Source: a bacterium
Lineage (GTDB): Bacteria > Patescibacteriota > Dojkabacteria > B142 > OLB20
Assembly: GCA_021463645.1 (NCBI GenBank)
Contig: JAJTYI010000004.1
Span: 1-46,276 of the forward strand
Reading direction: 5' to 3'
DNA: 46,276 bases
Shown here in pieces: positions 1,867 through 27,748 of the stretch (position 1 is its first letter; the number at the start of each line of letters is the position of its first letter). Both the position numbers and the translations under genes were made by a program. The notes under the pieces were generated by a model, which worked only from the letters and a program-made list of their open reading frames with translations, did no database searches and was not told the origin of the DNA.

Positions 1867-4800
1867 ATGAGTAATAAGATTGTCATTATCGACGATAATT
1901 TTTCAATTCGCCATTCAATTAAGGCGTATTTAACATCCCTTGAAAAGAAATATCAATTAGACCTTTCTGTCTTCTCAACCGATAATGGTGTTGAGGGACT
2001 TGGTTACATTTATATCACATCTCCCGATATCATAGTTATTGATACTACTCTTCCAAAGTATTCAGGGAGAGCAATTGTAGAATTTCTTTCACAAAATCCC
2101 CGTTTTCAGTCAGATAAAGTTAAAGTAATCATCCTTCAAGAGAAGTTAGAAAAAGATTTAATTGTTCCATCTAATTTTATTTCAATTAATAAAAACAAGA
2201 AGAAATCATTTGATGACCTGGTTAAGGTATTCAGTCATTTATTTGAAATTTCAGATGAGTTAAATAATAAAACTTTCTTTAGAAGTTTGGTAGGAAAAAT
2301 ATATATCAGCGCAAATAAAGTAGACCTATTAGGTAAATCGTTCAGAAAAAAGAGGCTGATACCGAAACTATTAAACAAGTTGAAGAGGTTTGTATATTCG
2401 GTTCTGACAAAGGTTATGCTGGCTTTGTTGGTAATGATCTATGGGAGGCCAGAAGAAGAAAATATCACGCAACTAAATATTGATAAGAATGCTTTTCGAA
2501 GACATTATTATCCAACATTAATTGCCACTTTTCTTTTCTCCGGCTTTCTACTCACCAATCTCGCAATTTTTGGTCTTACCCAGTTAGGCTTATACAATCA
2601 AAACAAAGAAGATGTAAAAGCTTTAGTGACCTTGACAGTAGATAGTACTCTCGATGATGCAGACTCAGATCCAGGTGATGGTGTATGTGATACTAATGAT
2701 GGAGTGGGCGATGGGCCATGTACACTCAGAGCAGCTATTGAGGAGGCAAATACTGAGGTTGATAGTGTGGTGATTGATTTTGCTATTCCAAATATCAACG
2801 ATACAACAACAAATTTATCCGATAGTTTGCAAGGTACCGAGGGCGATGCTACGGGATTTGTTCAAACATTAGGTATCCCAGCCCAGAAAACGGGTGGGGT
2901 TTTACAAACATTTACTGAAAGACCTGGAGCACAAGGATTGACAGACCTATTTGTTTTTGATAGTACAGCCGCACTCTCTTCATCCAATCCGTTAAACCTT
3001 TCTGATCAATTGGCGGCAGATGAAGGTACAGGTAATGCTACAGTAACAATTGTCTCCGAAAGTGACGATTTAAATCAACAATACATTGCATGGTTAGAAG
3101 ATGGAGATGTTGATTATCAAATGTTTCTATATGATCATGCTAGTGCATTATCTGCATCAAATCCATTGAATTTGTCAGATCAATTAGGTGTTGGTGACGG
3201 AACTGGAGATGCATCAGAACCAACTATAAACATGGATAGTACTGGTAGCGCATTTGTTTCATGGGTCGAAAATGGAGGTGCTAGAGGTGGTGAAGATATG
3301 TATTTATATAAGGGAGACGAATCGATATCAGCAACCAATCCATTGAATCTCTCAAATGAATTGCAAGGAGGGGAAGGTGTGGGAGATGCGAGAGGATTCT
3401 CAGTGATGAATGGTGATGAAGTGATAGTTATATGGGCAGAAGATGAAGGTTTAAAAGGCGGAGAAGATTTATACATCTTTAAAAACGACGACCCTATTTC
3501 AGCAACAAATCCGCTGAATCTTTCAAACCAGTTGCCTGCGGGTAGTGGAGAAAGTCTTTCAGGAATACAATACTTCGACGTTGGTGTTAGTATTTCAGGA
3601 ACCTTATTCGTAACTTGGACTGAATATAATGGTGCTAGGGGTTCGTCTGATCAATTCTTCTATAGAGATGATCAAGCAATCTCTTCTACAAACCCCATAA
3701 ATTTATCTGATGAGCTAGATGTATTACAAGGAACAAGCTATGCAGCTAATTTTGGGTTGAGATTATTAGTTGGATCCGATAACGAGGCGAAAGTTGTATG
3801 GCAAGAAAGAAGTACAAGTGAGGCTGATATGGATATATTCCTCTACGATAGTGGTAGTATTATCTCTGCTAGCAATCCGCTAAATTTATCTAAACAGCTT
3901 GGGGTCGGTGAGGGGACTGGTGATTCAGGGATCTCGTCAGATCAAAAGGTGTCACAGCACCTAGCATTAGATAGTAACAATAATCCGCACTTAATTTGGG
4001 CCGAAACCACAGGACTAAGGGGTTCTTACGATCTTTATTATTATAATGGATCACAGAGTCTATCCGCGTCGAATCCTTTGAACCTCTCGAATCAGCTAGG
4101 CGTTGGTGAAGGAACTATTAATGTCGGAGAAATTGAATTAGCGATGACTTCCACAGATACTGTTTATGTTACATGGGATGAATATAATGGTGCTAGAGGA
4201 GCAAAGGATTTATATTTATACGACAGCTCAATCTCTTTAAGCGCTACCAATCCACTAAACTTGTCAAATCTACTAGCAGGAGGTGAAGGAACAGGAGATG
4301 CCCAATCTTCTTATCTCTCGTATGAAACCCCAGCACTTGAAATTGACGATCAAGATTATGTCTATTTAGCTTGGAACGAGGATACAGGAACACAAGGCTT
4401 ATTAGACATGTATTATTATACAAACAAACCTATCTCCGGTATCACTTATCCTATTAATTTGTCCGAGAATTTAACATCGACCGAGGGTCTGATAAATGCC
4501 CTTGCACCACAGATTGCCGTAAATGATGGTATTGCCCATGTTTTTTGGCAAGAATCAAATGGACTCAGAGGTGGATACGATATTTATCATTTCAGTTCAG
4601 AAGTAGTAACTGAACATAGCATAATACCAAATACAGATTTGCCCGACATAACAAAATCAGATGTTACTATCGATGCTTCTACACAAAGTGGTGCTGATTG
4701 TGCAACTAGTACAGTAAAGGTTAGGCTTAGCGGAGAAAACTTAATAAGTAGCAAAAGAGGTTTTATTGTTGATGCTGAAAATGTAAATATTAAGGGTTTC

Positions 4801-7800
4801 AGTATAGTAGACTTTGCAGAATCTGGAGGATATGGTATTCAAATAAATCCTTCACAAAGTGCTACCGTACTTTGTAATATCGTTGGATTGGAAACAGATG
4901 GAACAACTGCAAATCCGAATTACACTGGTATAATGGTAGAATCGACAGGTTCTGTGAATATAGGGGATGGAACAGTCAGTGGAAGAAATATAATATCTGG
5001 GAATGATTCATATGGAGTAGGAACTTCTACTTGGGCTTATGTAAGTATTAAAGGGAACTACATAGGAACTGATAAAACAGGTCTGTTATCTAAGGGGAAT
5101 TTAAATGGCATATTGCTTGGTACTTTGACAACAGGTATTAACGTAATAGGTGGTGCAAGTGGACTAGATCCTGATAACGGATGTACTGGAGATTGTAATT
5201 TAATCTCTGGAAATACTATATCAGGGATTAGTTTCTCTGGATTTGAGCCAGGAGATAACGGAGATGGGACAGACAGATTAAATATTTTAGGTAATTTTAT
5301 TGGAACAAATGTAACAGGAACAGGGTCAATCCCTAATGGGAGTGGGATACAAAACTATTATGCGGACAGTGTAAATATTGGAGGAACTGATATTTCATCA
5401 AGGAACGTGATTTCTGGAAATTCAGGGAGTGGGATGACAATCTATAGCTATTTGACACAAGAAGGACAACAAGTTAAAGACTTGCATATCAGAAATAATT
5501 ATATTGGTACTAATGCATCTGGTACTTCGGCACTTTCAAACGGAAGTATGGGAATATACATGGTCAATAATATGCCAGAAGCGTTCATAACTGGCAATGT
5601 CATTTCTGGAAATCTTGGAAATGGAATAGAGACATTATTTGATTATACTGACGTACCTGTCGATTCTATTGTTATAAATGACAATAAAATTGGAACTCAA
5701 GCTGATGGATCGGGATCAATTGGAAACCAAGATAATGGAATATTACTTTTGGGTAAAGGGAATGTCTATATTGGAGATACTGGGGTAGGTAATATCATTA
5801 ATAATAATGGACAAAATGGAATTAAATTAAATGATCCAATACCACCTGGACCGGCAGTACCGCAATCATCAATAATAGTAAGTGTTAAGGATAACACTAT
5901 ACACAATAATGTTGGGTCAGGAATTGTAATACATAATAGCGGCTCATTGATTCAAGATAACTATATTTTGAATAATATAAGTAGTTCGGGAATCGAGTAT
6001 TATTGGGGAACGAGCCTAGATATTATTGGTAATAATTTTACTGGACAAGGGACTGGTATATTATTACACTCTCAACCTCTTATTCCTGGAAGTAATGCAG
6101 AAGGTGCTAATATTTTCCAAAATATTAACACAAGTCATCCTGCCATTGATTTAGATTATAGAACCTCTAATGATGTTGGAGATTCAGATTTTGGAGAAAA
6201 TAATTTACAAAATTACCCTGTTCTCACATCAGCGGAAGTATACACCGACACGAGATTATTTGGGACATTTAATAGTGAGGCAAATACATATTATCGAATA
6301 GAAGCTTTTGGGTTCTCTTCTCTTCCACTTTCAGAACCAATTGTCGAATCAACTATAGGTAGTACGATTATACAAACAGATGGTTCAGGAAACTATGATT
6401 TCTCTGTTAATCCAATTATTATTGCAGAACTATTATCGAATGACGACAATATTACAGTAACTGCTACCAAATGTAATGATAGTCTATGTAGCGATCCGAT
6501 AGAGACTTCCGAGTTAAGTGATGGTGTAGTAGCTACAATCTTAACACCCACACCGACACTCACTCCTCTTCCTACAGATACTCCAGAACCAACTCCTACG
6601 GATACACCGTTACCAACACCAACGAATACTCCACTGCCAACTCCGACCGAAATACCTAGTCCAACAAGCACTCCTACACCAACACCTGCTCCACCAAACG
6701 CACCTTCTTCACTAGGCCCTGCTATGTTAGAAGGTGGTGGATATACAAACGATACAACTCCCACTCTTGACTTTACTCTTTCAGCACCAGACACTGGTAT
6801 GCCTCTTTCATACAGGATTCAAATTCTCCAAGATGCTGCAGTAATAATTGACTATACTTCAGAGGAAGCGATTCAAGGAGTTAGATACTTTACTGTCGGG
6901 CAGGTTCCAGGATTAGGCACATACAATAATGGAGATGGATTTGAAGAACAAACACTTATTGAAGATGGTTACTCATGGAGAGTTATGGCTATGGGTTCTA
7001 GTGGTGATAGTACCTGGACGGATGCCAATAACAGTAATGTCGCTTTCACAGTAGACCTTCAATCTCCTACTGGAGGATCAATTTCATATACTGATGGTTA
7101 TCATACCTTCACTTCGGTCCCACTGGTACTTGATGACGGAACAGACTCTGCAGGAATCAATACTTCTACTAGATTAGTAGAAAGAAGTAGTGCAACACTC
7201 TCCACAGATGTGTGTTCTACTTTTGGGTCTTTCGAAGTAGTAACACCAACTGGCACTTATCCAAACCTAACAGACAACTCAGTAGCTGCAGCTAATTGCT
7301 ATCAATACAGATACACCCTTTCTGACAATGCAGGTAATGAAGTTACATATACATCAGTCAATGTTGCAAAGATTGATGTAGATGCTCCTTCTGCCCCTGG
7401 TGTTCCTCAGACTGAAACTCCTACATTTTCCGTTATTCAACAATGGACATGGGATGCCGCAGTAGACGTGGTCTCTGGAATTGCTCAATATGCTTGGAGA
7501 GTTGTTGATGAATTTGATAATACTATTGATAGTGGTGTAACTAATACTTTAGATGCTACTACCAACCTTGGAGTAGGAGTCTACACCTTCTTTGTTAGTG
7601 CTTTAAATAATGCAGGATTACTTAGTGATGAAAGTTTCGCAAACATTACTGTGGAACCTACTCCATCAAATACACCTATTCCAACTGCTACAGATACTCC
7701 AGAACCAACTCCTACTGATACACCTATTCCAGGTCCGACTGATACGCCAGTACCAGGAGCAACTAATACTCCGATTCCTACTGCTACAAATACACCGGTC

Positions 7801-9249
7801 CCTACGGCGACAAATACCCCAGTACCTACCGCTACAAGCACACTGGTCCCAACTGCGACAAACACTCTAGTTCCTACACCAGTCCCAACTACTGCACAAA
7901 TGGTTTATCCAACTTTAAGACCAACTTCCGCACCAGTTATTCCAACTGAAGTGCCTGCAACACCTACATCCACTACTATCCCAACTGAGGTAACACCGAC
8001 TCCATCTCCAACGCTAGAGCCTACGATGGTGCAACCTAGTCCAACTTCTTCCCCAACCGTAATCACTCCAACAGAGGGTGGATTCTTCAGTGATCTATCT
8101 CCGAAGAACTCTTATGCAATGCCAGAGGAATCCGTAGTAAACCATCCTGTTGTGAAATCCGTTGCGAAGACTATTACTGATAAATTAGATGAGTTAACAA
8201 GTGTATCTTCTCCAATTATTCCAATAGTAGAAGCACCATTAATCGTGGCAGAGACGTTAAAACCAATTTCAGATAATATCAATTATTATCTCTCTCTTCG
8301 ATTTATAGGAGAAAATGTAGCACTGGCAGGAATCTCAACTACTAATGTACTTGCTTATGTAGCACCTGCACTAGTCACTGCAATGTCCCAACCGAGAATA
8401 CTATTCCATGCATTTACATGGTTCTGGAAAAGGAAGAAGAAACAACATTGGGGAATTGTTTTGGATAATACTACAAACTCTCCAGTTGCTTTTGCAAGAA
8501 TTATCGTTTCCAAGGAAGGTAAGACAGTGGCCACAGCAACAAATGATTTGGAAGGTAAGTATGGATTTATTCTGGACAAAGGAGAGTACCAGATGTATAT
8601 CAATCATTCGGATTACACAGACTATCAGAAAGAAATATCAGTAAGGTTTGATGCGGAAGTTCTGGCACAAGATATCGAGCTCACTCCTAAATTACAGACC
8701 GATTTTGACTCCCCAGTTAGATGGACATATTTTAGACTCAAAAGGTTCATAAGTAAGAATTTGTTTATCTTCAATACAGTAGTCTTCTCAGTTGGTTTTG
8801 TTTATACAATATTTGCAATAACAAATGCACTAACAGTATTAAACTATGCAATCTTAGCATTGTACCTATTCCAGGTATTACTGATGATAGTCTTCTACAT
8901 TTTCAGAGAGAAAGATTGGGGACAAGTATTAGATTCACAAACAGGGGAACCAATAGCAGGGGCAATAATTAGAGTGTTTGACGATGAGAGACAATTAGAT
9001 GTAGCAATCACAGATACACAAGGAAGGTATAGTATTTATCTAGAACCTGGGGAGTATTTCTTAAAGGCAAATTACTCAGGATATATATTCCCAACTGCTA
9101 ATGCGACCAATGTGGTGACGAATAAATTAGGGGAGAAATTGTTTAAATTCGATGTGCAGGAGAGTCAGAAGTTAAATGTGAAGTTGTATATGCAGAGATT
9201 TGCTAATACAAATGTAAAACGTCAGGCGCTTTTGTCTCCATTCTCTTGA
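1867..9249 (+). CDS. Giant membrane-spanning surface protein: receiver domain, propeller repeats, CSLREA beta-helix, carboxypeptidase-regulatory-like domains
   Basis: 2460 residues. 1-125 form a response-regulator receiver domain: acidic pair D9/D10, phospho-acceptor position D59 in DIIVIDTTLP, and a Lys-rich segment where the conserved Lys falls; the usual Thr/Ser after strand 4 is not obvious (VIILQEK). A weak hydrophobic stretch (about 175-193) and a strong helix (213-238) follow, so the receiver should be cytoplasmic. A CSLREA-type start (CTLRAAIEEAN, about 285-297) is followed by nine or ten repeats of about 65 residues with NPLNLS and W-x-E motifs (309-912), which look like propeller blades. 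The right-handed beta-helix then resumes (919-1450, IGT-type coils), followed by PT linker, Ig-like domains and a long PT linker (about 1932-2075). The C-terminus has a helix near 2155-2185, a carboxypeptidase-regulatory-like sandwich, two helices (2297-2350) and a second such sandwich. It lies 83 bases after the preceding surface gene. Function is unknown; adhesion or sensing is inferred. Confidence 0.85.
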   Translation: MSNKIVIIDDNFSIRHSIKAYLTSLEKKYQLDLSVFSTDNGVEGLGYIYITSPDIIVIDTTLPKYSGRAIVEFLSQNPRFQSDKVKVIILQEKLEKDLIVPSNFISINKNKKKSFDDLVKVFSHLFEISDELNNKTFFRSLVGKIYISANKVDLLGKSFRKKRLIPKLLNKLKRFVYSVLTKVMLALLVMIYGRPEEENITQLNIDKNAFRRHYYPTLIATFLFSGFLLTNLAIFGLTQLGLYNQNKEDVKALVTLTVDSTLDDADSDPGDGVCDTNDGVGDGPCTLRAAIEEANTEVDSVVIDFAIPNINDTTTNLSDSLQGTEGDATGFVQTLGIPAQKTGGVLQTFTERPGAQGLTDLFVFDSTAALSSSNPLNLSDQLAADEGTGNATVTIVSESDDLNQQYIAWLEDGDVDYQMFLYDHASALSASNPLNLSDQLGVGDGTGDASEPTINMDSTGSAFVSWVENGGARGGEDMYLYKGDESISATNPLNLSNELQGGEGVGDARGFSVMNGDEVIVIWAEDEGLKGGEDLYIFKNDDPISATNPLNLSNQLPAGSGESLSGIQYFDVGVSISGTLFVTWTEYNGARGSSDQFFYRDDQAISSTNPINLSDELDVLQGTSYAANFGLRLLVGSDNEAKVVWQERSTSEADMDIFLYDSGSIISASNPLNLSKQLGVGEGTGDSGISSDQKVSQHLALDSNNNPHLIWAETTGLRGSYDLYYYNGSQSLSASNPLNLSNQLGVGEGTINVGEIELAMTSTDTVYVTWDEYNGARGAKDLYLYDSSISLSATNPLNLSNLLAGGEGTGDAQSSYLSYETPALEIDDQDYVYLAWNEDTGTQGLLDMYYYTNKPISGITYPINLSENLTSTEGLINALAPQIAVNDGIAHVFWQESNGLRGGYDIYHFSSEVVTEHSIIPNTDLPDITKSDVTIDASTQSGADCATSTVKVRLSGENLISSKRGFIVDAENVNIKGFSIVDFAESGGYGIQINPSQSATVLCNIVGLETDGTTANPNYTGIMVESTGSVNIGDGTVSGRNIISGNDSYGVGTSTWAYVSIKGNYIGTDKTGLLSKGNLNGILLGTLTTGINVIGGASGLDPDNGCTGDCNLISGNTISGISFSGFEPGDNGDGTDRLNILGNFIGTNVTGTGSIPNGSGIQNYYADSVNIGGTDISSRNVISGNSGSGMTIYSYLTQEGQQVKDLHIRNNYIGTNASGTSALSNGSMGIYMVNNMPEAFITGNVISGNLGNGIETLFDYTDVPVDSIVINDNKIGTQADGSGSIGNQDNGILLLGKGNVYIGDTGVGNIINNNGQNGIKLNDPIPPGPAVPQSSIIVSVKDNTIHNNVGSGIVIHNSGSLIQDNYILNNISSSGIEYYWGTSLDIIGNNFTGQGTGILLHSQPLIPGSNAEGANIFQNINTSHPAIDLDYRTSNDVGDSDFGENNLQNYPVLTSAEVYTDTRLFGTFNSEANTYYRIEAFGFSSLPLSEPIVESTIGSTIIQTDGSGNYDFSVNPIIIAELLSNDDNITVTATKCNDSLCSDPIETSELSDGVVATILTPTPTLTPLPTDTPEPTPTDTPLPTPTNTPLPTPTEIPSPTSTPTPTPAPPNAPSSLGPAMLEGGGYTNDTTPTLDFTLSAPDTGMPLSYRIQILQDAAVIIDYTSEEAIQGVRYFTVGQVPGLGTYNNGDGFEEQTLIEDGYSWRVMAMGSSGDSTWTDANNSNVAFTVDLQSPTGGSISYTDGYHTFTSVPLVLDDGTDSAGINTSTRLVERSSATLSTDVCSTFGSFEVVTPTGTYPNLTDNSVAAANCYQYRYTLSDNAGNEVTYTSVNVAKIDVDAPSAPGVPQTETPTFSVIQQWTWDAAVDVVSGIAQYAWRVVDEFDNTIDSGVTNTLDATTNLGVGVYTFFVSALNNAGLLSDESFANITVEPTPSNTPIPTATDTPEPTPTDTPIPGPTDTPVPGATNTPIPTATNTPVPTATNTPVPTATSTLVPTATNTLVPTPVPTTAQMVYPTLRPTSAPVIPTEVPATPTSTTIPTEVTPTPSPTLEPTMVQPSPTSSPTVITPTEGGFFSDLSPKNSYAMPEESVVNHPVVKSVAKTITDKLDELTSVSSPIIPIVEAPLIVAETLKPISDNINYYLSLRFIGENVALAGISTTNVLAYVAPALVTAMSQPRILFHAFTWFWKRKKKQHWGIVLDNTTNSPVAFARIIVSKEGKTVATATNDLEGKYGFILDKGEYQMYINHSDYTDYQKEISVRFDAEVLAQDIELTPKLQTDFDSPVRWTYFRLKRFISKNLFIFNTVVFSVGFVYTIFAITNALTVLNYAILALYLFQVLLMIVFYIFREKDWGQVLDSQTGEPIAGAIIRVFDDERQLDVAITDTQGRYSIYLEPGEYFLKANYSGYIFPTANATNVVTNKLGEKLFKFDVQESQKLNVKLYMQRFANTNVKRQALLSPFS

Positions 9250-11044: not shown

Positions 11045-11761
11045 TTATTCTTTTTGCATAATAACATACGTGTTATTGCTATCCGAGGTATATCTAGATA
11101 GTGGACGTAATTGAGAGTAGTGGATTAAAGATTGTTTTTCCTCCTCAGAAAAATAATGACAATACCTTTGTGTGTCAGTGCTGTCGGACCATTTTAGTAG
11201 ATGATCCCCTTCCTCAAGGTCTTTTTTATCAAATTTTGATAAGGACCAAGGGAAAATTCTATTTTGCATTCTATTTCCTTTTAAAAAGTCCCAAAATGTT
11301 AAAACTATGATGCCTTTCGGTTTAAGTAATTTTGATAATTGTTTAATCAAGTCTATTCTATTGGAATTCCCAGGAATATGATGCAATACAGCTATGAGCG
11401 AAATTAAATCATATTTCTCGTTGGCTATTTTTGTAAAATCGTCATTAGCAATATCAAAACGCATGAAATAAGAGTTTTCATCAGCAAGTTTATTTTGACA
11501 TTCTGATATGAAATTAGATGAGTGGTCGATTCCTAGATATGTGAAATTATCGGTGTTTTCTCTCAAGAATTTCAGAAAACGACCGTTCCCACATCCTACA
11601 TCTAATACATTTCTGATATTCGGATTATGTGTTTTTATTACTTCCCATGCCTTTTGCCACCCTTTCCAGTAATAATTCCTGGTATTTGAGAACTCTTGAG
11701 CATTCTCTTCGTAGAAAATGCGATTAAGCTCGAGTAATTTCTGTCTAGTTTCGTCTTTCAT
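11045..11761 (-). CDS. Trm9/ALKBH8-family class I SAM methyltransferase, predicted tRNA wobble-uridine carboxymethyl methyltransferase
   Basis: 238 residues. Motif I is LDVGCGNGRFL (53-63); the acidic residue after strand 2 is in GIDHS (78-82); motif IV region is SLIAVLHHI (121-129), followed by LLKPKGIIVLTFW. Beyond the generic fold, three stretches match the Trm9/ALKBH8 methyltransferase family: the N-terminal FYEENAQEFSNTR (compare VYEEIAGHFSSTR), the VLHHI...NR...L..LLKP block, and the C-terminal QRYCHYFSEEE (compare HRYYHVFREGE). That family methylates 5-carboxymethyluridine at tRNA position 34 to mcm5U, using SAM. The gene is divergent from elp3, whose product makes cm5U, with 80 bases between the two starts, which strongly supports a shared pathway. 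No Trm112-like partner is seen in the window. It converges on the surface gene ending at 11025 (19-base gap). Substrate is inferred. Confidence 0.8.
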   Translation of the reverse strand: MKDETRQKLLELNRIFYEENAQEFSNTRNYYWKGWQKAWEVIKTHNPNIRNVLDVGCGNGRFLKFLRENTDNFTYLGIDHSSNFISECQNKLADENSYFMRFDIANDDFTKIANEKYDLISLIAVLHHIPGNSNRIDLIKQLSKLLKPKGIIVLTFWDFLKGNRMQNRIFPWSLSKFDKKDLEEGDHLLKWSDSTDTQRYCHYFSEEEKQSLIHYSQLRPLSRYTSDSNNTYVIMQKE

Positions 11762-11841
11762 AATTATTTAACATATTTTATCATGTCAAACTGAATAATC
11801 CTGTGAATAATTGCGAATTCTAATGTTACAATACAAGGACT

Positions 11842-13602
11842 ATGGATCCAAAGAAGTATAAAGACGAATTTGAACAAATATTTAAAGAAATCTCATTAAT
11901 TCCAGACAATAAATGGAGTTATAAGAAATTTCATAAAATCTTACGCAACCATCCACGGGATGGCTCTGGAATATTTAGTCGAAATAATCTTGTTGAAGGC
12001 TACCGATATCTATCAGAAGTTGCTGGGACAGAAGTTGATCAAAAGGTTCTAGATAGGATTAAAATGAGGCCTACGAGGACAATATCTGGCGTAACTCCCG
12101 TAACAGTCTTAACCAAGCCATTTCCGTGTCCTGGAAAGTGCATTTTCTGTCCAAATGATGTCAGAATGCCTAAAAGTTATCTCCGAGATGAGCCTGGCGC
12201 ACAAAGAGCTGAGAGAAACAGCTTCGATCCGTATTTGCAGACATACAATAGGTTGTTAGCACTTCATAACATTGGCCATAACACAAGCAAAGTTGAGCTC
12301 ATCGTTTTGGGGGGAACTTGGTCGTTTTATCCCGAAAGTTATCAAATCTGGTTTGTGAAAAGATGTTTTGATGCTATGAATGACTTTGGAGTCAAGGATA
12401 ATCGCGACAAAGTCAAAGTTCAAAACGACTTTGAAGAGGCTGATAAAGCTCCAAATCGTAAAATTGATGGTGGAAGAAAATCATACAATCAGATAATTAA
12501 CGAAGTTGTTCACAATAAAGGTAAAAGATTAATTTCCGAGACCGAGATGACTACTTGGGAGAGCCTTGAGAGTGCTCATAAACTAAACGAAAATGCAAAA
12601 AGTCATTGCGTAGGATTAGTCATAGAAACAAGACCGGACTGGATAAATGAAGCTGAAATTATAAAGTTTCGAAGACTTGGTGCAACGAAGATACAAATCG
12701 GAATCCAAAGTTTGGATGACAAAGTAATGGAATTAAATAAAAGAGGCCATGGTAGAAAAGAAACTGAAAATGCTATTAGATTATTAAGACTTGGTGGATT
12801 TAAGATTCATGCTCACTGGATGCCAAATCTTTATGGATCCACTGTCGAGAATGATATCCTAGACTACAAAAGACTCTGGGAGAAACAAATTCAACCAGAC
12901 GAATTGAAAGTTTATCCCACCAGTATCATTTCCAATACGGGGCTTTATGATTTATACAAAAAAGGCGAGTATAAACCATACACTTATGAAGAGTTGCTGA
13001 AGGTGATGACTGAAATTATGCCACTGACGCCTAGGTATTGTAGGTTAACTAGGATTGTGAGAGATATTCCTTCGACGGATATAGTAGCAGGCAACAAGTT
13101 GACGAACTTTAGACAAATTGCAGAGCTGGAGTTAGAGAGAACAGAGAAAAAGTGTCAGTGCATCAGATGTAGAGAAATCAAAGGAAAATCAATACGTGCA
13201 GAGGATTTGGAGCTTGAAACGATTGAATATATGACTGAGGTTGGAAAAGAAGTCTTCATATCATACAAAACAAAGTCAGAGGATAAGATTATTGGATTCT
13301 TGAGATTAAGTTTACCTGAGAAATCATTAATTAAAAATCATTTCATTGAAGAATTGCAAAACTCTGCAATGATTAGAGAAGTGCATGTTTATGGCTCTGT
13401 AGTAAACATCGGAATTAAGCAAAGTCAAAAGTCTCAACATCTAGGAATTGGAACAAAATTAGTCAAATTGGCTGAAGAGTTGGCTTCGGAGGATGGGTTT
13501 TTAAGGATTGCTGTAATATCAGCTATTGGCACGAGAGAATATTACAAAAAGCTGGGGTTTGAGCTGGAGGAAATGTATATGATAAAAAATTTAATTACAT
13601 AG
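11842..13602 (+). CDS. elp3: Elp3 family radical-SAM/GNAT tRNA uridine(34) carboxymethyl enzyme
   Basis: 586 residues, the usual size for Elp3. An N-terminal helical tRNA-binding region (1-80) precedes the radical SAM core. The cluster cysteines are C96, C100 and C103 (CPGKCIFC, C-x3-C-x2-C), followed by PKSYLRDEPGAQRAERN and FDPYLQTYNRL, both Elp3 signatures. Other core motifs are VELIVLGGTW, ETRPDW, TKIQIGIQS, HWMPNLYGS and ELKVYP. A zinc site (CQCIRCREIK, about 434-443) links to the C-terminal acetyltransferase-like domain (EVHVYGSVVNIG, QHLGIGTKLV, IGTREYYKKLGFELE). Elp3 proteins use SAM and acetyl-CoA to make 5-carboxymethyluridine at the tRNA wobble base. The gene is divergent from the Trm9-like methyltransferase. 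The ATG at 11842 has no clear Shine-Dalgarno sequence. Confidence 0.96.
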   Translation: MDPKKYKDEFEQIFKEISLIPDNKWSYKKFHKILRNHPRDGSGIFSRNNLVEGYRYLSEVAGTEVDQKVLDRIKMRPTRTISGVTPVTVLTKPFPCPGKCIFCPNDVRMPKSYLRDEPGAQRAERNSFDPYLQTYNRLLALHNIGHNTSKVELIVLGGTWSFYPESYQIWFVKRCFDAMNDFGVKDNRDKVKVQNDFEEADKAPNRKIDGGRKSYNQIINEVVHNKGKRLISETEMTTWESLESAHKLNENAKSHCVGLVIETRPDWINEAEIIKFRRLGATKIQIGIQSLDDKVMELNKRGHGRKETENAIRLLRLGGFKIHAHWMPNLYGSTVENDILDYKRLWEKQIQPDELKVYPTSIISNTGLYDLYKKGEYKPYTYEELLKVMTEIMPLTPRYCRLTRIVRDIPSTDIVAGNKLTNFRQIAELELERTEKKCQCIRCREIKGKSIRAEDLELETIEYMTEVGKEVFISYKTKSEDKIIGFLRLSLPEKSLIKNHFIEELQNSAMIREVHVYGSVVNIGIKQSQKSQHLGIGTKLVKLAEELASEDGFLRIAVISAIGTREYYKKLGFELEEMYMIKNLIT

Positions 13603-13679: not shown

Positions 13680-13925
13680 TTATACGTACTTATATATGGA
13701 GTCAATATATATTAAATCGTTATTAGAGTATCCTTCTGCTAATACCTTCCCACAATAAAAGCAAATAATATCTGTATAGGCATATATATCGGTTCGGATT
13801 TCAGTGCAGGGTTTTCCATCTTTAATAATTTCTCTCTGAGTTATATTTTTATGTCCTCGATTAGATACACCTGCAATTTCCTTGTGTTTTCCATCTGGAG
13901 ATTTAGGACTATTACACTCCGTCAT
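13680..13925 (-). CDS. Small Cys-containing hypothetical protein, possible zinc ribbon
   Basis: 81 residues, family not recognised. It has cysteines at positions 4, 40, 55 and 58, the last two in CFYCGK, which looks like one knuckle of a zinc ribbon; whether C4 and C40 complete a site cannot be told. The rest is hydrophilic with no membrane segment. A good -10 box (TATAAT on the minus strand, plus-strand 13949-13954) lies 23 bases before the ATG, the same spacing as other promoters here, which supports expression. It is flanked by elp3, with which it converges, and by a divergent rpe-like gene. Confidence 0.5.
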   Translation of the reverse strand: MTECNSPKSPDGKHKEIAGVSNRGHKNITQREIIKDGKPCTEIRTDIYAYTDIICFYCGKVLAEGYSNNDLIYIDSIYKYV

Positions 13926-21972: not shown

Positions 21973-24900
21973 ATGCCTCGCAAAAAGTATATTTCAGTTC
22001 TGACAGTTTTTTTTATCCTACTACAGTATTTTTCGCCTCTGGTGGGGTTGATTCCGGTACAAGCTACTGGAAATTCATTTAAGATGCCGAAACCAACTCC
22101 TATTGAGAATTTAAGTGTTTGTCCAGAAGGTAATGGTTGGACCGATCACATAGGGAAAGGTGCGGATGGTAATGTAAATTATACAGCCCCAACTGGTTAT
22201 GTCGTTGATTCCGTATGTATAAAGGGTGGGAATGAACTTAATAGCCCTAATGGTTATTTGGAGATCTTCACATCCAATAGTTGGTATAAAACTGGGACTA
22301 CGAATTGTGTTGGAGCTGCAGGAATAGGAAATCAAATGGCAAGTGCGTTACGAAATCCGAATGCAGAAGGAAATAAATGTGCAGATATTTCACATGCTTC
22401 ATTCAAATTAGCTAGAGTACAAGGTGCAGAGCTTGTATGTACCCCTGGTGTGAACCTATTAAAGAATGCAGATTTTGAAACACCAGTAGTTACTACCGCA
22501 ACAAACTGGGACATAGTCCCTAGTGGTACAACTGGTTTAGAATGGAAAGTAGAATGGCAAAGTATAGATACATTATTCGAAGGACAGAATAGACCTGAAA
22601 TTGCAAATCTCGAATTACATAAAGGTGTTAATGGGTGGCTTCCTCAAACAGGTTCACAATATGCTGAACTTGATTCTGATTGGTTTGGACCTACAAATCC
22701 ATTAACCAATGAACCTACTTCAGTTAAAATAAGTCAAGAAATTGCAACAATCCCTAATTACGAATACAAGGTTGAATATCATTTCTCACCTCGACCTGGA
22801 ACACCAGATGCAGATAATAAACTTGTTTCAGCTTGGGCAGGAAATACTTTGGAAACACATATTGCTACAGGAGGTGCAAACACATCATGGACAAAGCATA
22901 CAGAAACAATAGAAGCCACATCAGAGAAAGCGATTTTATCTTTCATGGATGATGGTAATCCAAACTCGCTAGGCACTTTCCTAGACAACGTAAGTGTAGA
23001 GTGTATCGGACCAGCAGTAGAGCCGACTACAACACCAACGAATACACCAACACCATCATTAACACCTACTCCAGAAGTATGTAGCGAAGGTCCAACATGG
23101 GTAAGTGGCATTTTAGAAGGAACAGATCAGGGTACAGAAAAAGATGGTTCTGCAGTACTCGCAGAAAGATCCAATCCAAACAATACATTAGGTGAAGCTG
23201 ATGGAAAATTCTTTAGTCTAGGACTTGGCGGAGTACTAATGGTTGAATTCGAATATCCTGTGTTAAATGTTGAAGATAAAATGGATATTTCGGTTCATGA
23301 AGTTACAAATGGCCGTACGTCTTATCCTGAAGAAAAGGCAAAAGTAGAAGTTAGTTTAGATGGAGATACATATTTTGAATTGGGTACAGCAAGTAACAAA
23401 TCAAATACAACTGGAGATGCAAGTGGACAAGGAGGAAATGGAGTTTCGCTTTTTGATCTTGAAACAGTAGGACTAGAAGCAGCTAAGTATCTAAGAATTA
23501 CCGATACCACAAACTATGCTCTACACATCGCCAGTGCTGATGGATATGATCTTGATGCAATCGATGCAACATATGGTTTGTGTGAAGAGCAGGAACTTCC
23601 TGACTTTGCAGATGTCACAGTCTGTAAACAAGATAATCAACAAAATTATCTTCCAGGATGGAATGTTCAGTTGTTAGGAGAATTTCTAGAAACAGTTGAA
23701 GTTGAACCTGATGACAAAATAGGAGATCCTTATACTCCAAGTTACTCATCAGAACTACCAGAAGGAGATTATGTTCTAATGGCAAGGGGAACTTATAAAT
23801 ACCGAGGAGGAACAGAATTATTAACTGATCCTGCCTATTCACAGAGGTTAGAATCTGATGGATTTGTAGGTCCATATATCCCATGGATAAATGTGATGGA
23901 TTTGACCACAACAGGTGCTCTTGGAGTTACAGTTAATGATGCTCCAGCAGATTGGGGTTACTTCTCACCAGCGAATACATATGCAAGAGGTTTTGAGAAT
24001 TATACAGGTGAATTTAAATTTACATCTTTCGATAACAACATAACTGATAATGAAGGCTCAATGTATGTGGATATTTACGAAGGTTATGCAGGATTTACTG
24101 AAGAAGATGGTTGTATAACTTTTGAAAATGTTCCTTATGGAGACTACATGACAAACGAAATCTTAATGAAAGATTGGGAAAATGTCAGTGGTCAAGCTAC
24201 TGAAGTGGTAGTTGAAAATGAAACTGAAACATTTACATTAGTAAATAGACCAGTTAGCGAGCCAGCAAAACTACTTGCAACCAAAGTTGTATGTAGTGAA
24301 GAGCAATACTTACCAAATAATCAACAAGGTCCAATTGACGCAGATACAGCTGCTGAGTGGGTTGCTCAAAGTGGAGGACAGTGTAAGATTGAAGAAGACT
24401 GGGATTTCCAATGGGGACCAGCAGGAAGTGGAAGTTTCGGAGACTTTCAGGAAAATACAACTGAGATGGGAGATCCATGGACAACATTTAGTTCAGGTGT
24501 TGAAGTCGAGTTACCAGAACTAGGAAGTGTCGGTGGAAGAGTAGAACTAAGAGAAGTCTTCCCAGATGATAGTTTTGTTCCTTTCTCAAATGATGGGAAT
24601 GTCAGTGCAGAATTCTACTGTACTGGTGATACCGCTAATTACGACAACTGGGAATGGTTGAGCGGCTATGAAAAAGACAATACATATTACTGTGTTGCAT
24701 TTAACGCAGAGAAAATAGGAGCAATTGAAGGTATGAAATTCGAAGATGCAAATGCAAACGGAGAGAGAGATGATGAAGAAATGGGAATTCCAAATTGGCA
24801 AATTGTCCTCAAACCTGAAACCCTTGAACCAATTTATGATCTTGATTTACCTGCAAATAGTCCAACTGGTGTAAATACTGGAGTTTTATCAAGCTCGAAA

Positions 24901-27072
24901 TACTACCTGGTAGAGGTAGAGGGAACATACAGTTACTCAGGGGTAACAAAACTCGCTGATGCTGAATATTATTCAACCGACAACTGGTCAAATTCTGCAG
25001 ACTTTGCAGATAATCTTGGCAGAGATGTGAGGACACTTGATGTTGTTATTGATGATCAAAACATTGAATGGGGTTCATCAAACTCTGCACATTTATACAA
25101 AACTGTTATTAAAGGAAATGATGCAGTTGCGAACCTAAGAATATTTGATGAAGATAATGATCCAAACCCACCTTCATGGTACAACGACAATGCTGGGACT
25201 TTAGAAGTCCGAGTATATGATGTATCCAATTATAGAGTTGAGACTGACGAAGATGGTGAATATTCACAAGAAGTGGAAAATGGAGAATATCAAGTAGTAG
25301 AAATTAATCAACCTGGATGGATTCAGACAGCTCCTAGCCCAAGTTATTGTCATCTGACAGTAGAAAATGGTAGCACGGAAACTTGTGAGTTTGGAAATAC
25401 AAGAATGGGTTCTATTGATGGTTATAAACTTGAGGATACAAATGGAGATGGAACTTTGACCAGACAAGACGCCAGGTTAGAAGGTTGGGAAATCAATCTA
25501 TGGACCGGTGACGAAGAAGACCCAATTTCAAAAATACAAACAAAAACTACTGATGAAAACGGTTATTACAAATTTGATAATCTACTACCAGGTATTTATT
25601 GGTTAAATGAGAATCAAAAAGATGGCTGGACCCAGACCGCTGGAGATGAAGTTCAGGGACCATTAGTTATTCAAGTTGGTACAGAATTACATGGAAATAA
25701 CTTTGGTAACTTTGAACTAGGAAGAGTACAAGGATATAAGTGGGATGATATGAATGCTAACGGAATGATGGATGAAGATAGAGCCTCTTTGCTCTCTGGT
25801 TGGAAAGTAACCTTAGAGATGTTAGAAGAAGATGAAGAAAACGGTTATAAAATAATGAATTCATTACCTTACAAAATGACAGATGAAAAAGGAGCTTTTG
25901 AATTTGATGGGTTGCTTCCAGGAGAATATAAACTTTGTGAGGAAATGCAAGATGGTTGGATGCAAACTTATCCATTAAAACAAAACGAGATAAGTGTAGC
26001 GTTCTCAGATGATTATGATACAGAATGTCACTACATTGAGATTGATACTTCAGGTCAAGTATTGGCAAATTTAAACTTCGGAAATTTCGAATTTGGACAG
26101 GTGAGTGGATACAAATGGGATGATGATAATGGTGATGGATTAAAGACTTACGGTGAGCCTAAAATGGAAGGATGGACTATCGAATTGAGGATGGACACAT
26201 ATGACGGTACAGTTATCGATACAGAGGAGACTGATACAGAAGGCGAGTATTCTTTCAAGAATCTAATGCCTGGTACATATTTCCTAACTGAGGTAAATCA
26301 AGCTGTTACAAACGGTTCATGGGAGCAAACATATCCTGTTGACCCAGGTTACCACACATTTGTAATAGACAGCTCTGGTGATGTCTTCGAAGATATGAAC
26401 TTCGGTAACAATGTTATTGGAGATATATTAGCGGAGAAAACCACTACAAACGAAACATTTACACCAGGCCAACTCGTTACCTATAACATCAGAGTTGTAA
26501 ACAAAGGAACTGAAACAGCTCATGGTGTGGAAATCTGGGATAATCTACCAGCAGGAATGCAATATTATGATTCCTCTCCAAATGGACAATATACCCCTGC
26601 AAACAATCGTGTTACATGGACAAAAGAAAGCCTTGATGTTAATGAAGAGTGGACTGCACAGATTCGATTATTAGTACCAGCAGATTCCACTGCAACTTCG
26701 ATAATAAATGAGGTTCGTGCCTTAAGATCTTGTCAGTTAGTAAACGAATTTACTACGACTCTTGTACCTTCAATTGTTGAGGTTCCAGAACCAGTAATTG
26801 AGTTCTGTGAAGATGACCCAACACCTGAGGATAATATTGATTCTGTTAGTTTGAATCGAGCACAAGTTGCTGGTGCAAATATAACTGATGATGAAGAATC
26901 TACAGGAAATATCAGAGGCATGGCTACGAGTGCACTCGGAAAAGTACTAGGTGCAAGTAATAGTCTTTCTGATACGGGGAGAAATATGTCAACAGCACTT
27001 ATTCTAGGTACATCACTGATTTCAGCAATATTTATTCTGAACAAAAATAAATTTCGCAGAAATATCTACTAG
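21973..27072 (+). CDS. Large cell-surface protein with DUF642-like, SdrD/Cna-B-like and DUF11 domains and LSDTG sorting-like tail
   Basis: 1699 residues. The signal peptide covers about 1-32 (basic MPRKK, hydrophobic core, VQATG). A galactose-binding-like, DUF642-type domain is at about 155-345 (NLLKNADFETP ... FLDNVSVECIG). After a short PT linker (349-368), a second jelly-roll-like domain covers 370-535. Several SdrD-B/Cna-B-like modules follow, with starts near 915 (GMKFEDANANGERDDEE), 1145 (GYKLEDTNGDG), 1249 (GYKWDDMNANG) and 1374 (GYKWDDDNGDG), each with calcium-type D-x-N-x-D/N runs. A DUF11 domain covers 1480-1590. The C-terminus is LSDTG (1665-1669), a hydrophobic helix and a basic end, 30 residues after the Gly; this looks like a sortase signal and matches that of the next gene. 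Probable wall- or membrane-anchored surface protein; ligand unknown. Confidence 0.85.
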   Translation: MPRKKYISVLTVFFILLQYFSPLVGLIPVQATGNSFKMPKPTPIENLSVCPEGNGWTDHIGKGADGNVNYTAPTGYVVDSVCIKGGNELNSPNGYLEIFTSNSWYKTGTTNCVGAAGIGNQMASALRNPNAEGNKCADISHASFKLARVQGAELVCTPGVNLLKNADFETPVVTTATNWDIVPSGTTGLEWKVEWQSIDTLFEGQNRPEIANLELHKGVNGWLPQTGSQYAELDSDWFGPTNPLTNEPTSVKISQEIATIPNYEYKVEYHFSPRPGTPDADNKLVSAWAGNTLETHIATGGANTSWTKHTETIEATSEKAILSFMDDGNPNSLGTFLDNVSVECIGPAVEPTTTPTNTPTPSLTPTPEVCSEGPTWVSGILEGTDQGTEKDGSAVLAERSNPNNTLGEADGKFFSLGLGGVLMVEFEYPVLNVEDKMDISVHEVTNGRTSYPEEKAKVEVSLDGDTYFELGTASNKSNTTGDASGQGGNGVSLFDLETVGLEAAKYLRITDTTNYALHIASADGYDLDAIDATYGLCEEQELPDFADVTVCKQDNQQNYLPGWNVQLLGEFLETVEVEPDDKIGDPYTPSYSSELPEGDYVLMARGTYKYRGGTELLTDPAYSQRLESDGFVGPYIPWINVMDLTTTGALGVTVNDAPADWGYFSPANTYARGFENYTGEFKFTSFDNNITDNEGSMYVDIYEGYAGFTEEDGCITFENVPYGDYMTNEILMKDWENVSGQATEVVVENETETFTLVNRPVSEPAKLLATKVVCSEEQYLPNNQQGPIDADTAAEWVAQSGGQCKIEEDWDFQWGPAGSGSFGDFQENTTEMGDPWTTFSSGVEVELPELGSVGGRVELREVFPDDSFVPFSNDGNVSAEFYCTGDTANYDNWEWLSGYEKDNTYYCVAFNAEKIGAIEGMKFEDANANGERDDEEMGIPNWQIVLKPETLEPIYDLDLPANSPTGVNTGVLSSSKYYLVEVEGTYSYSGVTKLADAEYYSTDNWSNSADFADNLGRDVRTLDVVIDDQNIEWGSSNSAHLYKTVIKGNDAVANLRIFDEDNDPNPPSWYNDNAGTLEVRVYDVSNYRVETDEDGEYSQEVENGEYQVVEINQPGWIQTAPSPSYCHLTVENGSTETCEFGNTRMGSIDGYKLEDTNGDGTLTRQDARLEGWEINLWTGDEEDPISKIQTKTTDENGYYKFDNLLPGIYWLNENQKDGWTQTAGDEVQGPLVIQVGTELHGNNFGNFELGRVQGYKWDDMNANGMMDEDRASLLSGWKVTLEMLEEDEENGYKIMNSLPYKMTDEKGAFEFDGLLPGEYKLCEEMQDGWMQTYPLKQNEISVAFSDDYDTECHYIEIDTSGQVLANLNFGNFEFGQVSGYKWDDDNGDGLKTYGEPKMEGWTIELRMDTYDGTVIDTEETDTEGEYSFKNLMPGTYFLTEVNQAVTNGSWEQTYPVDPGYHTFVIDSSGDVFEDMNFGNNVIGDILAEKTTTNETFTPGQLVTYNIRVVNKGTETAHGVEIWDNLPAGMQYYDSSPNGQYTPANNRVTWTKESLDVNEEWTAQIRLLVPADSTATSIINEVRALRSCQLVNEFTTTLVPSIVEVPEPVIEFCEDDPTPEDNIDSVSLNRAQVAGANITDDEESTGNIRGMATSALGKVLGASNSLSDTGRNMSTALILGTSLISAIFILNKNKFRRNIY

Positions 27073-27217: not shown

Positions 27218-27748
27218 ATGATAAACTTCAATAAGCTAAAGAGTAACTTAATATTTAGTTCACTCTTTTTAACTGCCACATTTAGTATGTTGTCCGGATT
27301 ATCCATCTTTTCAAGTAACGCAGCAGTTCATGCACATCATATTTATGATGGTTATAATAACGGTTACAACAACGGTTATAACAATGGCTATAACAACGGC
27401 TACAACAATGGTTATAATAACGATTATAATAATGGCTATAATAACGGTTACAACAATGGTTATGTTGCTCCAGTCTGTGATGAAGATCCAACACCTACAC
27501 CAACTACAACACCTACACCTACTGACCTTCCAGAACCAACACCTACTGAAGTTGTTCCTACATCTACTCCTGTAGAGCCTACAGTAGAACCTACTGCTAG
27601 AGTATTATCTGCAACAGCCCCTGTTGTAGAACAGAGAGTCTTAGCAGATACAGGTATAAACATGTACAGTACACTTGGTTTGGGTTCAGTTTTACTTAGT
27701 TCTGTGTTTGTTTTAAACAAGGACTTAGGGTTTATGAAGAGAAAATAA
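27218..27748 (+). CDS. Small surface protein with YNNG tandem repeats and LADTG sorting-like tail
   Basis: 176 residues. The signal peptide is at about 1-36 (IFSSLFLTATFSMLSGL, ending near SNAAVHA). Residues 45-82 are nine tandem YNN(G/D) units. A Pro/Thr-rich linker (about 87-120) leads to LADTG (142-146), a hydrophobic stretch and the basic end FMKRK, exactly 30 residues after the Gly, as in the preceding gene. LAxTG is the motif class recognised by class E sortases; no sortase gene is in the window. It has its own terminators before and after, so it is monocistronic. A Tyr/Asn/Gly-rich repeat exposed at the surface may be adhesive or structural; this is inference. Confidence 0.8.
   Translation: MINFNKLKSNLIFSSLFLTATFSMLSGLSIFSSNAAVHAHHIYDGYNNGYNNGYNNGYNNGYNNGYNNDYNNGYNNGYNNGYVAPVCDEDPTPTPTTTPTPTDLPEPTPTEVVPTSTPVEPTVEPTARVLSATAPVVEQRVLADTGINMYSTLGLGSVLLSSVFVLNKDLGFMKRK
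27350..27463 (+). repeat. 12-bp tandem repeat encoding YNNG
   Basis: About nine copies of a GGNTAYAAYAAY unit lie inside the gene at 27218. Copies differ only at third codon positions, apart from one G-to-D change, which indicates selection on the peptide and slippage-driven copy number. Confidence 0.9.

Follow-up and report, generated by a model that had tools for sequence, protein, structure and literature searches.

The 46,276-nt stretch of DNA analysed here (the window), from a CPR bacterium of the Dojkabacteria whose genome comprises 1.2 Mb in 9 contigs and is 88% complete, carries a gene for Elp3 back to back with a gene for a methyltransferase, and raises the question of whether these two genes could amount to a bacterial version of the Elongator/Trm9 pathway for modification of the wobble uridine (U34) of tRNAs. 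The first-pass annotation had described the two genes as divergent, and both ORFs are indeed present in this arrangement, with their start codons 80 nt apart in the ORF list of the window. The features of the locus are as follows:

11045..11761, (-) strand: ORF for a Trm9-like class I SAM methyltransferase, 238 aa, the predicted cm5U34 carboxyl-methyltransferase
11678..11692, (-) strand: FSNTR motif, residues 24-28, in which R28 corresponds to yeast Trm9 R29 (tRNA binding)
11582..11602, (-) strand: SAM-binding motif DVGCGNG, residues 54-60
11378..11383, (-) strand: HH motif, residues 127-128, in which H127 corresponds to yeast Trm9 H115
11156..11167, (-) strand: RYCH motif, residues 199-202, in which R199 corresponds to Trm9 R241 and C201 replaces Trm9 Y243
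11072..11074, (-) strand: N230, corresponding to Trm9 N271 (the C-terminus of Yarrowia Trm9, YlTrm9, reads KDNWWVVAK)
11762..11841, no strand: intergenic region of 80 nt between the divergent start codons, most carriers being arranged alike
11842..13602, (+) strand: Elp3 (radical SAM and GNAT), 586 aa, the predicted cm5U34 synthase (TIGR01211, alignment with 5l7j)
12127..12150, (+) strand: Elp3 radical-SAM cluster motif C96/C100/C103 (CxxxCxxC)
13153..13170, (+) strand: Elp3 zinc-site cysteines C438/C440/C443, from the alignment with 5l7j

A promoter scan of the pair region gave 16 against 10.7 ± 3.8 expected, which represents little excess.

The larger gene had been taken for a clear Elp3 on account of its three-cysteine cluster motif, zinc site and GNAT domain, and each of these elements was recovered. 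The protein scores 518.1 bits against TIGR01211 in NCBIfam (cut-off 350), contains the Pfam domains Radical_SAM, Radical_SAM_C and GNAT, and aligns with the stand-alone bacterial Elp3 of Dehalococcoides mccartyi (DmcElp3, 5l7j) with an E value of 2.4e-103. Both proteins share the same three-Cys zinc site, a motif that is typical of bacterial and archaeal Elp3 (PMC6367351). Moreover, the catalytic residues K77, K193, E386 and Y441 named for DmcElp3 (PMC6367351) correspond to the identical residues K150, K321, E513 and Y567 of the window Elp3, all tested catalytic residues being intact in the alignment. In contrast to DmcElp3, which has been presented as a rarity among bacteria (PMC6367351) and for which no modification product has been shown (PMC7663514), the window Elp3 has a longer N-terminus and a Trm9-like partner gene. 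It also has an insertion of ~58 residues relative to the Dehalococcoides and archaeal Elp3 proteins (residues about 182-240, window 12385-12561) that separates two parts of the radical-SAM domain; the alignment continues across this insertion for several related Elp3s and breaks there for others, namely families f8 and f9.

The association of the two genes extends well outside this locus. Among 58 related genomes (the host and 57 relatives), the methyltransferase family occurs in 23, carriers being called at a best E of 2.2e-17 or lower and the next genomes giving only generic matches above 1e-9, and Elp3 is present in all 23. The pair is directly divergent on one contig in 18 of these carriers, separated by 1.4-3 kb in two, and placed on different contigs of fragmented bins in three. 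Across 380 genomes of the phylum, the methyltransferase was found in 109, Elp3 in 139 and both in 106 (Fisher p = 6e-60, a statistic that ignores shared ancestry), and 86 of the pairs are divergent at a distance of no more than 500 nt; the three methyltransferase genomes that lack Elp3 are accounted for by two bins that are 78 and 68% complete and by one copy interrupted by stops. Elp3 stands without the methyltransferase in 33 of the 139 genomes and, thus, methylation is not obligatory. Family f9 keeps Elp3 without the methyltransferase (G014, G020, G026, G029, G037, G040, G047, G054 and G057), which suggests cm5U or another derivative as the end product in these genomes.

A wider survey covered GTDB genome contigs of 84,980 species, from which the best 80 loci were taken. 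They belong to Chloroflexi, Deltaproteobacteria/Myxococcota, Acidobacteria, Fermentibacteria, Eisenbacteria, Ignavibacteriales, TM6 and several CPR groups; one further carrier is a cultured actinobacterium, Ellagibacter isourolithinifaciens DSM 104140, in which the pair is divergent. Elp3 lies within the flank at 55 of the 80 loci, and the remaining 25 genomes hold a full Elp3 elsewhere in 23 cases and a partial one in a single case. The protein distances of Elp3 and of the methyltransferase correlate with r = 0.87 (permutation maximum 0.20), a value to which common descent contributes, and no third gene was found to recur widely with the pair when neighbours were compared across loci. The arrangement is far beyond chance, and the adjacency of the two genes is kept both in related genomes, as the earlier reading of the locus implied, and across several phyla.

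With regard to the Trm9-like character of METHYLTRANSFERASE, the 238-aa protein alone matches only generic methyltransferase models in Pfam and NCBIfam, and a single-sequence phmmer search of the PDB lists generic methyltransferases, with Trm9 in 35th place and METTL6 also in the list. The profile of family alignment A1 (18 rows for 17 distinct proteins, the window protein having been entered twice) was searched against 177,635 PDB sequences and places Yarrowia Trm9 (5cm2_Z) first, with E 1.8e-17; this alignment runs through the C-terminal RYYH region, to chain residue 184, and the four other PDB alignments shown break off at about the end of the SAM fold or a little beyond it. The reverse search, with the YlTrm9 sequence read back from the 5cm2_Z alignment, agrees in the 58 related genomes: the Elp3-adjacent methyltransferase is the sole match in the host genome and the Elp3-linked methyltransferase is the best match in 21 of the 23 carriers, the other two (G008 and G030) giving no match. 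The profile comparison proposed in the first-pass annotation, hence, came out in favour of Trm9. The AlphaFold model of the methyltransferase has a pLDDT of 93, and a fold search against the PDB ranks 5cm2_Z sixth, with METTL6 and other methyltransferases scoring alike; the modelled fold alone fails to single out Trm9.

The motifs outside the SAM fold that had been recognised as Trm9/ALKBH8-type are strongly conserved. In an alignment of 91 family members, F24, R28 (Trm9 R29), H128 and R199 (R241) are each present in all 91, as are G58 and N59 of the SAM motif; H127 (H115) is kept in 83, N230 (N271) in 77, D186 in 85, W191 in 79 and Y232 in 83. In YlTrm9, the first His of the HH motif lies 86 residues after the Arg, with the same spacing as that from R29 to H115 in yeast. 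Mutations of R29, H115, R241, Y243 and N271 in yeast Trm9 affect tRNA affinity and kcat (PMC5372719), and four of these five mutationally tested tRNA residues are, as judged by alignment, kept in the family, with Y243 changed: position 201 holds C in 53, V in 22, A in 7 and Y in 6 of the 91 members. The resemblance to Trm9 once seen in the stretch QRYCHYF is borne out for its invariant Arg and must be corrected for the second Tyr of Trm9 RYYH, which is Cys here. Since Y243 is replaced, the methyltransferase is filed as Trm9-like and not as Trm9 proper. A subgroup with Tyr at this position (L108, L114, L118, L120, L121 and L123) is also found; at three of these loci the neighbouring Elp3 is more divergent, with about 38% identity, and L121 belongs to the one carrier genome that bears MnmG. 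A strict signature regex for the family was discarded as too narrow, having matched 42 of 73 members.

The pair would represent a bacterial form of the Elongator/Trm9 wobble pathway that consists of two genes, with mcm5U34 as the predicted product (mcm5s2U34 together with MnmA), a reading drawn from sequence comparison to which a probability of about 0.75 can be given and which is in line with the supported Elp3-Trm9-like interpretation of the first-pass annotation. We infer the reactions, their order, the identity of the nucleoside, the set of tRNAs and the replacement of MnmEG as follows. Elp3 alone would use acetyl-CoA and a SAM-derived radical to place a carboxymethyl group on C5 of U34 (cm5U34) in tRNAs with UNN anticodons; the Trm9-like enzyme would then methylate the cm5U34 carboxylate with SAM to form mcm5U34; and MnmA, the bacterial thiolase, would introduce s2 into Lys, Glu and Gln tRNAs, giving mcm5s2U34. 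Neither the other Elongator subunits nor, in this lineage, Trm112 would be required, and the pair would fill the place that MnmEG has in most bacteria.

MnmA is present in the host genome (435 bits, cut-off 237), in which 39 tRNA genes were found, with 13 U34 anticodons (UCU, UCG, UUU, UAC, UGU, UAU, UCC, UAA, UAG, UGA, UGG, UUG and UUC). They include a tRNA-Ile(UAU) (L145, G000:C5:1705-1778). The search turned up just two CAU tRNAs, so that U34, instead of a lysidine-modified CAU, may decode AUA, in which case U34 would need a restricting modification. For the Arg CGN codons, tRNA-Arg UCG and GCG were found (L141, G000:C1:101833-101906; L139, G000:C6:143214-143287) and no ACG tRNA, a set unlike the usual inosine system of bacteria.

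MnmG was found above cut-off in none of the 58 genomes (the host and its 57 relatives). Of 50 further carriers, almost all of which lie outside CPR, 49 lack it as well, the exception being an Ignavibacteriales genome; the nine bacteria included as controls all scored above the cut-off. Within the class of the host, MnmG is lacking both in genomes that have Elp3 and in those that do not and, thus, displacement is not arguable inside the class; the replacement of MnmEG can be argued only from the carriers outside it, a sample that consists of pair-bearing genomes. The lack of MnmG, the presence of MnmA and the replacement of Y243 are points that the first-pass annotation did not raise.

Known Trm9 and ALKBH8 enzymes require Trm112, of which the first-pass annotation saw no trace. 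This holds for the host genome (no PF03966 match at 88% completeness) and for 22 of the 23 carriers of the class, the match in G025 lying inside a 335-aa frame; it does not hold for the 50 carriers outside the class, 35 of which match PF03966, many of these matches lying in frames as short as about 75-125 aa, so that independence from Trm112 is argued for CPR only. An 81-aa Cys-containing ORF just 3' of Elp3 (13680-13925) was considered as a stand-in for Trm112 and dropped because it is conserved in no other locus and has no Trm112 match.

Several other roles for the methyltransferase have to be weighed. It could target another tRNA position (a METTL6/Trm140-like m3C32 or another base) and be co-inherited with Elp3 because both enzymes serve the same tRNAs, and the equal fold scores of METTL6 structures and Trm9, as well as the presence of METTL6 in the single-sequence PDB list, would fit this; however, METTL6 lies outside the best 60 PDB matches of the A1 profile search, in which Trm9 is first, and the Trm9-type C-terminal residues are conserved, which makes this role improbable. 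An enzyme of the CmoA/CmoM type, belonging to the cmo5U pathway, was also considered, since CmoM likewise methylates a carboxylate on a U34 side chain. The weak NCBIfam matches of the window protein to CmoA (38.3 bits), CmoB (33.5) and CmoM (26.1) are nevertheless far below the respective cut-offs of 193.3, 209 and 366 bits, the partner gene is Elp3 and not CmoAB, and the A1 profile puts Trm9 far ahead of CmoB 7ct8 (E 1.8e-17 against 1.8e-7); membership in the cmo5U pathway is very improbable. That an unrelated generic methyltransferase adjoins Elp3 by accident, as its purely generic Pfam and NCBIfam matches might indicate, is refuted by the survey, with its divergent pairing kept across several phyla and co-occurrence in 106 of 109 genomes, and is hardly credible.

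Among the points against mcm5U34 as the product, Y243, needed in yeast Trm9, appears in the alignment mostly as Cys or Val, and Trm112, needed by the known enzymes, is not found in the genome. From an active site without Trm9 Y243 and the lack of Trm112, it can be argued that the methyltransferase takes the Elp3-dependent wobble base as its substrate and yields another end product, for instance by methylating a further-processed side chain, with which its near-strict dependence on Elp3 would also agree. The change of Y243 may alter how the uridine is held, and other end products may be possible. However, the four other Trm9 substrate residues are kept, with R241 in 91 of 91 members, and one subgroup retains Tyr at position 201; a different end product is considered unlikely.

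The predicted mcm5U34 pathway shares with the eukaryotic system of Elongator (Elp3) and Trm9-Trm112/ALKBH8 the Elp3 catalytic subunit, a Trm9-like methyltransferase with equivalents of R29, H115, R241 and N271, and the expected order of cm5U and then mcm5U. It would differ in that no other Elongator subunits are expected, no Trm112 was found, Y243 is replaced, the genes form a divergent bacterial pair, and thiolation is predicted to depend on MnmA rather than Ctu1/2. A stand-alone Elp3 with a Trm9 homolog is also found in archaea, where the genes are sometimes clustered: HVO_2888 and HVO_0574 or HVO_1032 are the Elp3 and Trm9 homologs of Haloferax volcanii, both homologs are clustered in Sulfolobus solfataricus, and a stand-alone archaeal Elp3 makes cm5U in vitro (PMC2584109, PMC5372719), while archaeal Trm9 acts with Trm112 (PMC7694415). 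The present pair differs in being bacterial and in keeping its divergent arrangement over phyla, archaeal Trm9 being compared by description and not by sequence. MnmEG/MnmC (mnm5U34) and CmoABM (mcmo5U34) are likewise bacterial pathways for the C5 side chain of U34, and CmoM also forms a carboxyl methyl ester; however, their first-step chemistry is unrelated, and MnmG is absent from nearly all carriers of the pair.

According to a 2017 review, no bacterial homologs of Trm112-dependent methyltransferases, Trm9 included, had been found (PMC5372719); a 2020 review placed bacterial Elp3 in one clade, with no evidence for its product (PMC7663514), another review of the same year assigned cm5U and mcm5U to archaea and eukaryotes only (PMC7694415), and a paper of 2026 mentions numerous bacteria with Elp3 (PMC13315578). 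A literature search, beyond whose reach lay most subscription papers and preprints, retrieved nothing on a Trm9 from bacteria or on a bacterial Elp3-Trm9 pairing. What appears to be new is a bacterial variant of a known eukaryotic and archaeal pathway, strongly supported by genomics: the Elp3-Trm9-like pair is kept in several bacterial phyla, by genomes without MnmG. Given that several phyla without the standard bacterial pathway have the pair in common, chemistry attributed to eukaryotes and archaea is probably widespread among bacteria. We lean slightly towards the broader proposal of a widespread, unrecognised bacterial pathway in which the pair takes the place of MnmEG and forms mcm5U34 (mcm5s2U34 with MnmA), free of Trm112 at least in CPR. 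If confirmed, it would be another bacterial solution for decoding purine-ending codons, would explain how many CPR and Chloroflexi manage without MnmEG, and would provide simple two-protein models of Elongator/Trm9 chemistry. The pair is present in a cultured gut bacterium, which makes it readily testable.

Elsewhere in the window, two very large ORFs with proline/threonine-rich stretches (1867-9249, 2460 aa; 21973-27072, 1699 aa) probably encode secreted or surface proteins, and positions 27218-27748 encode a small protein that looks secreted and contains consecutive NNGY repeats.
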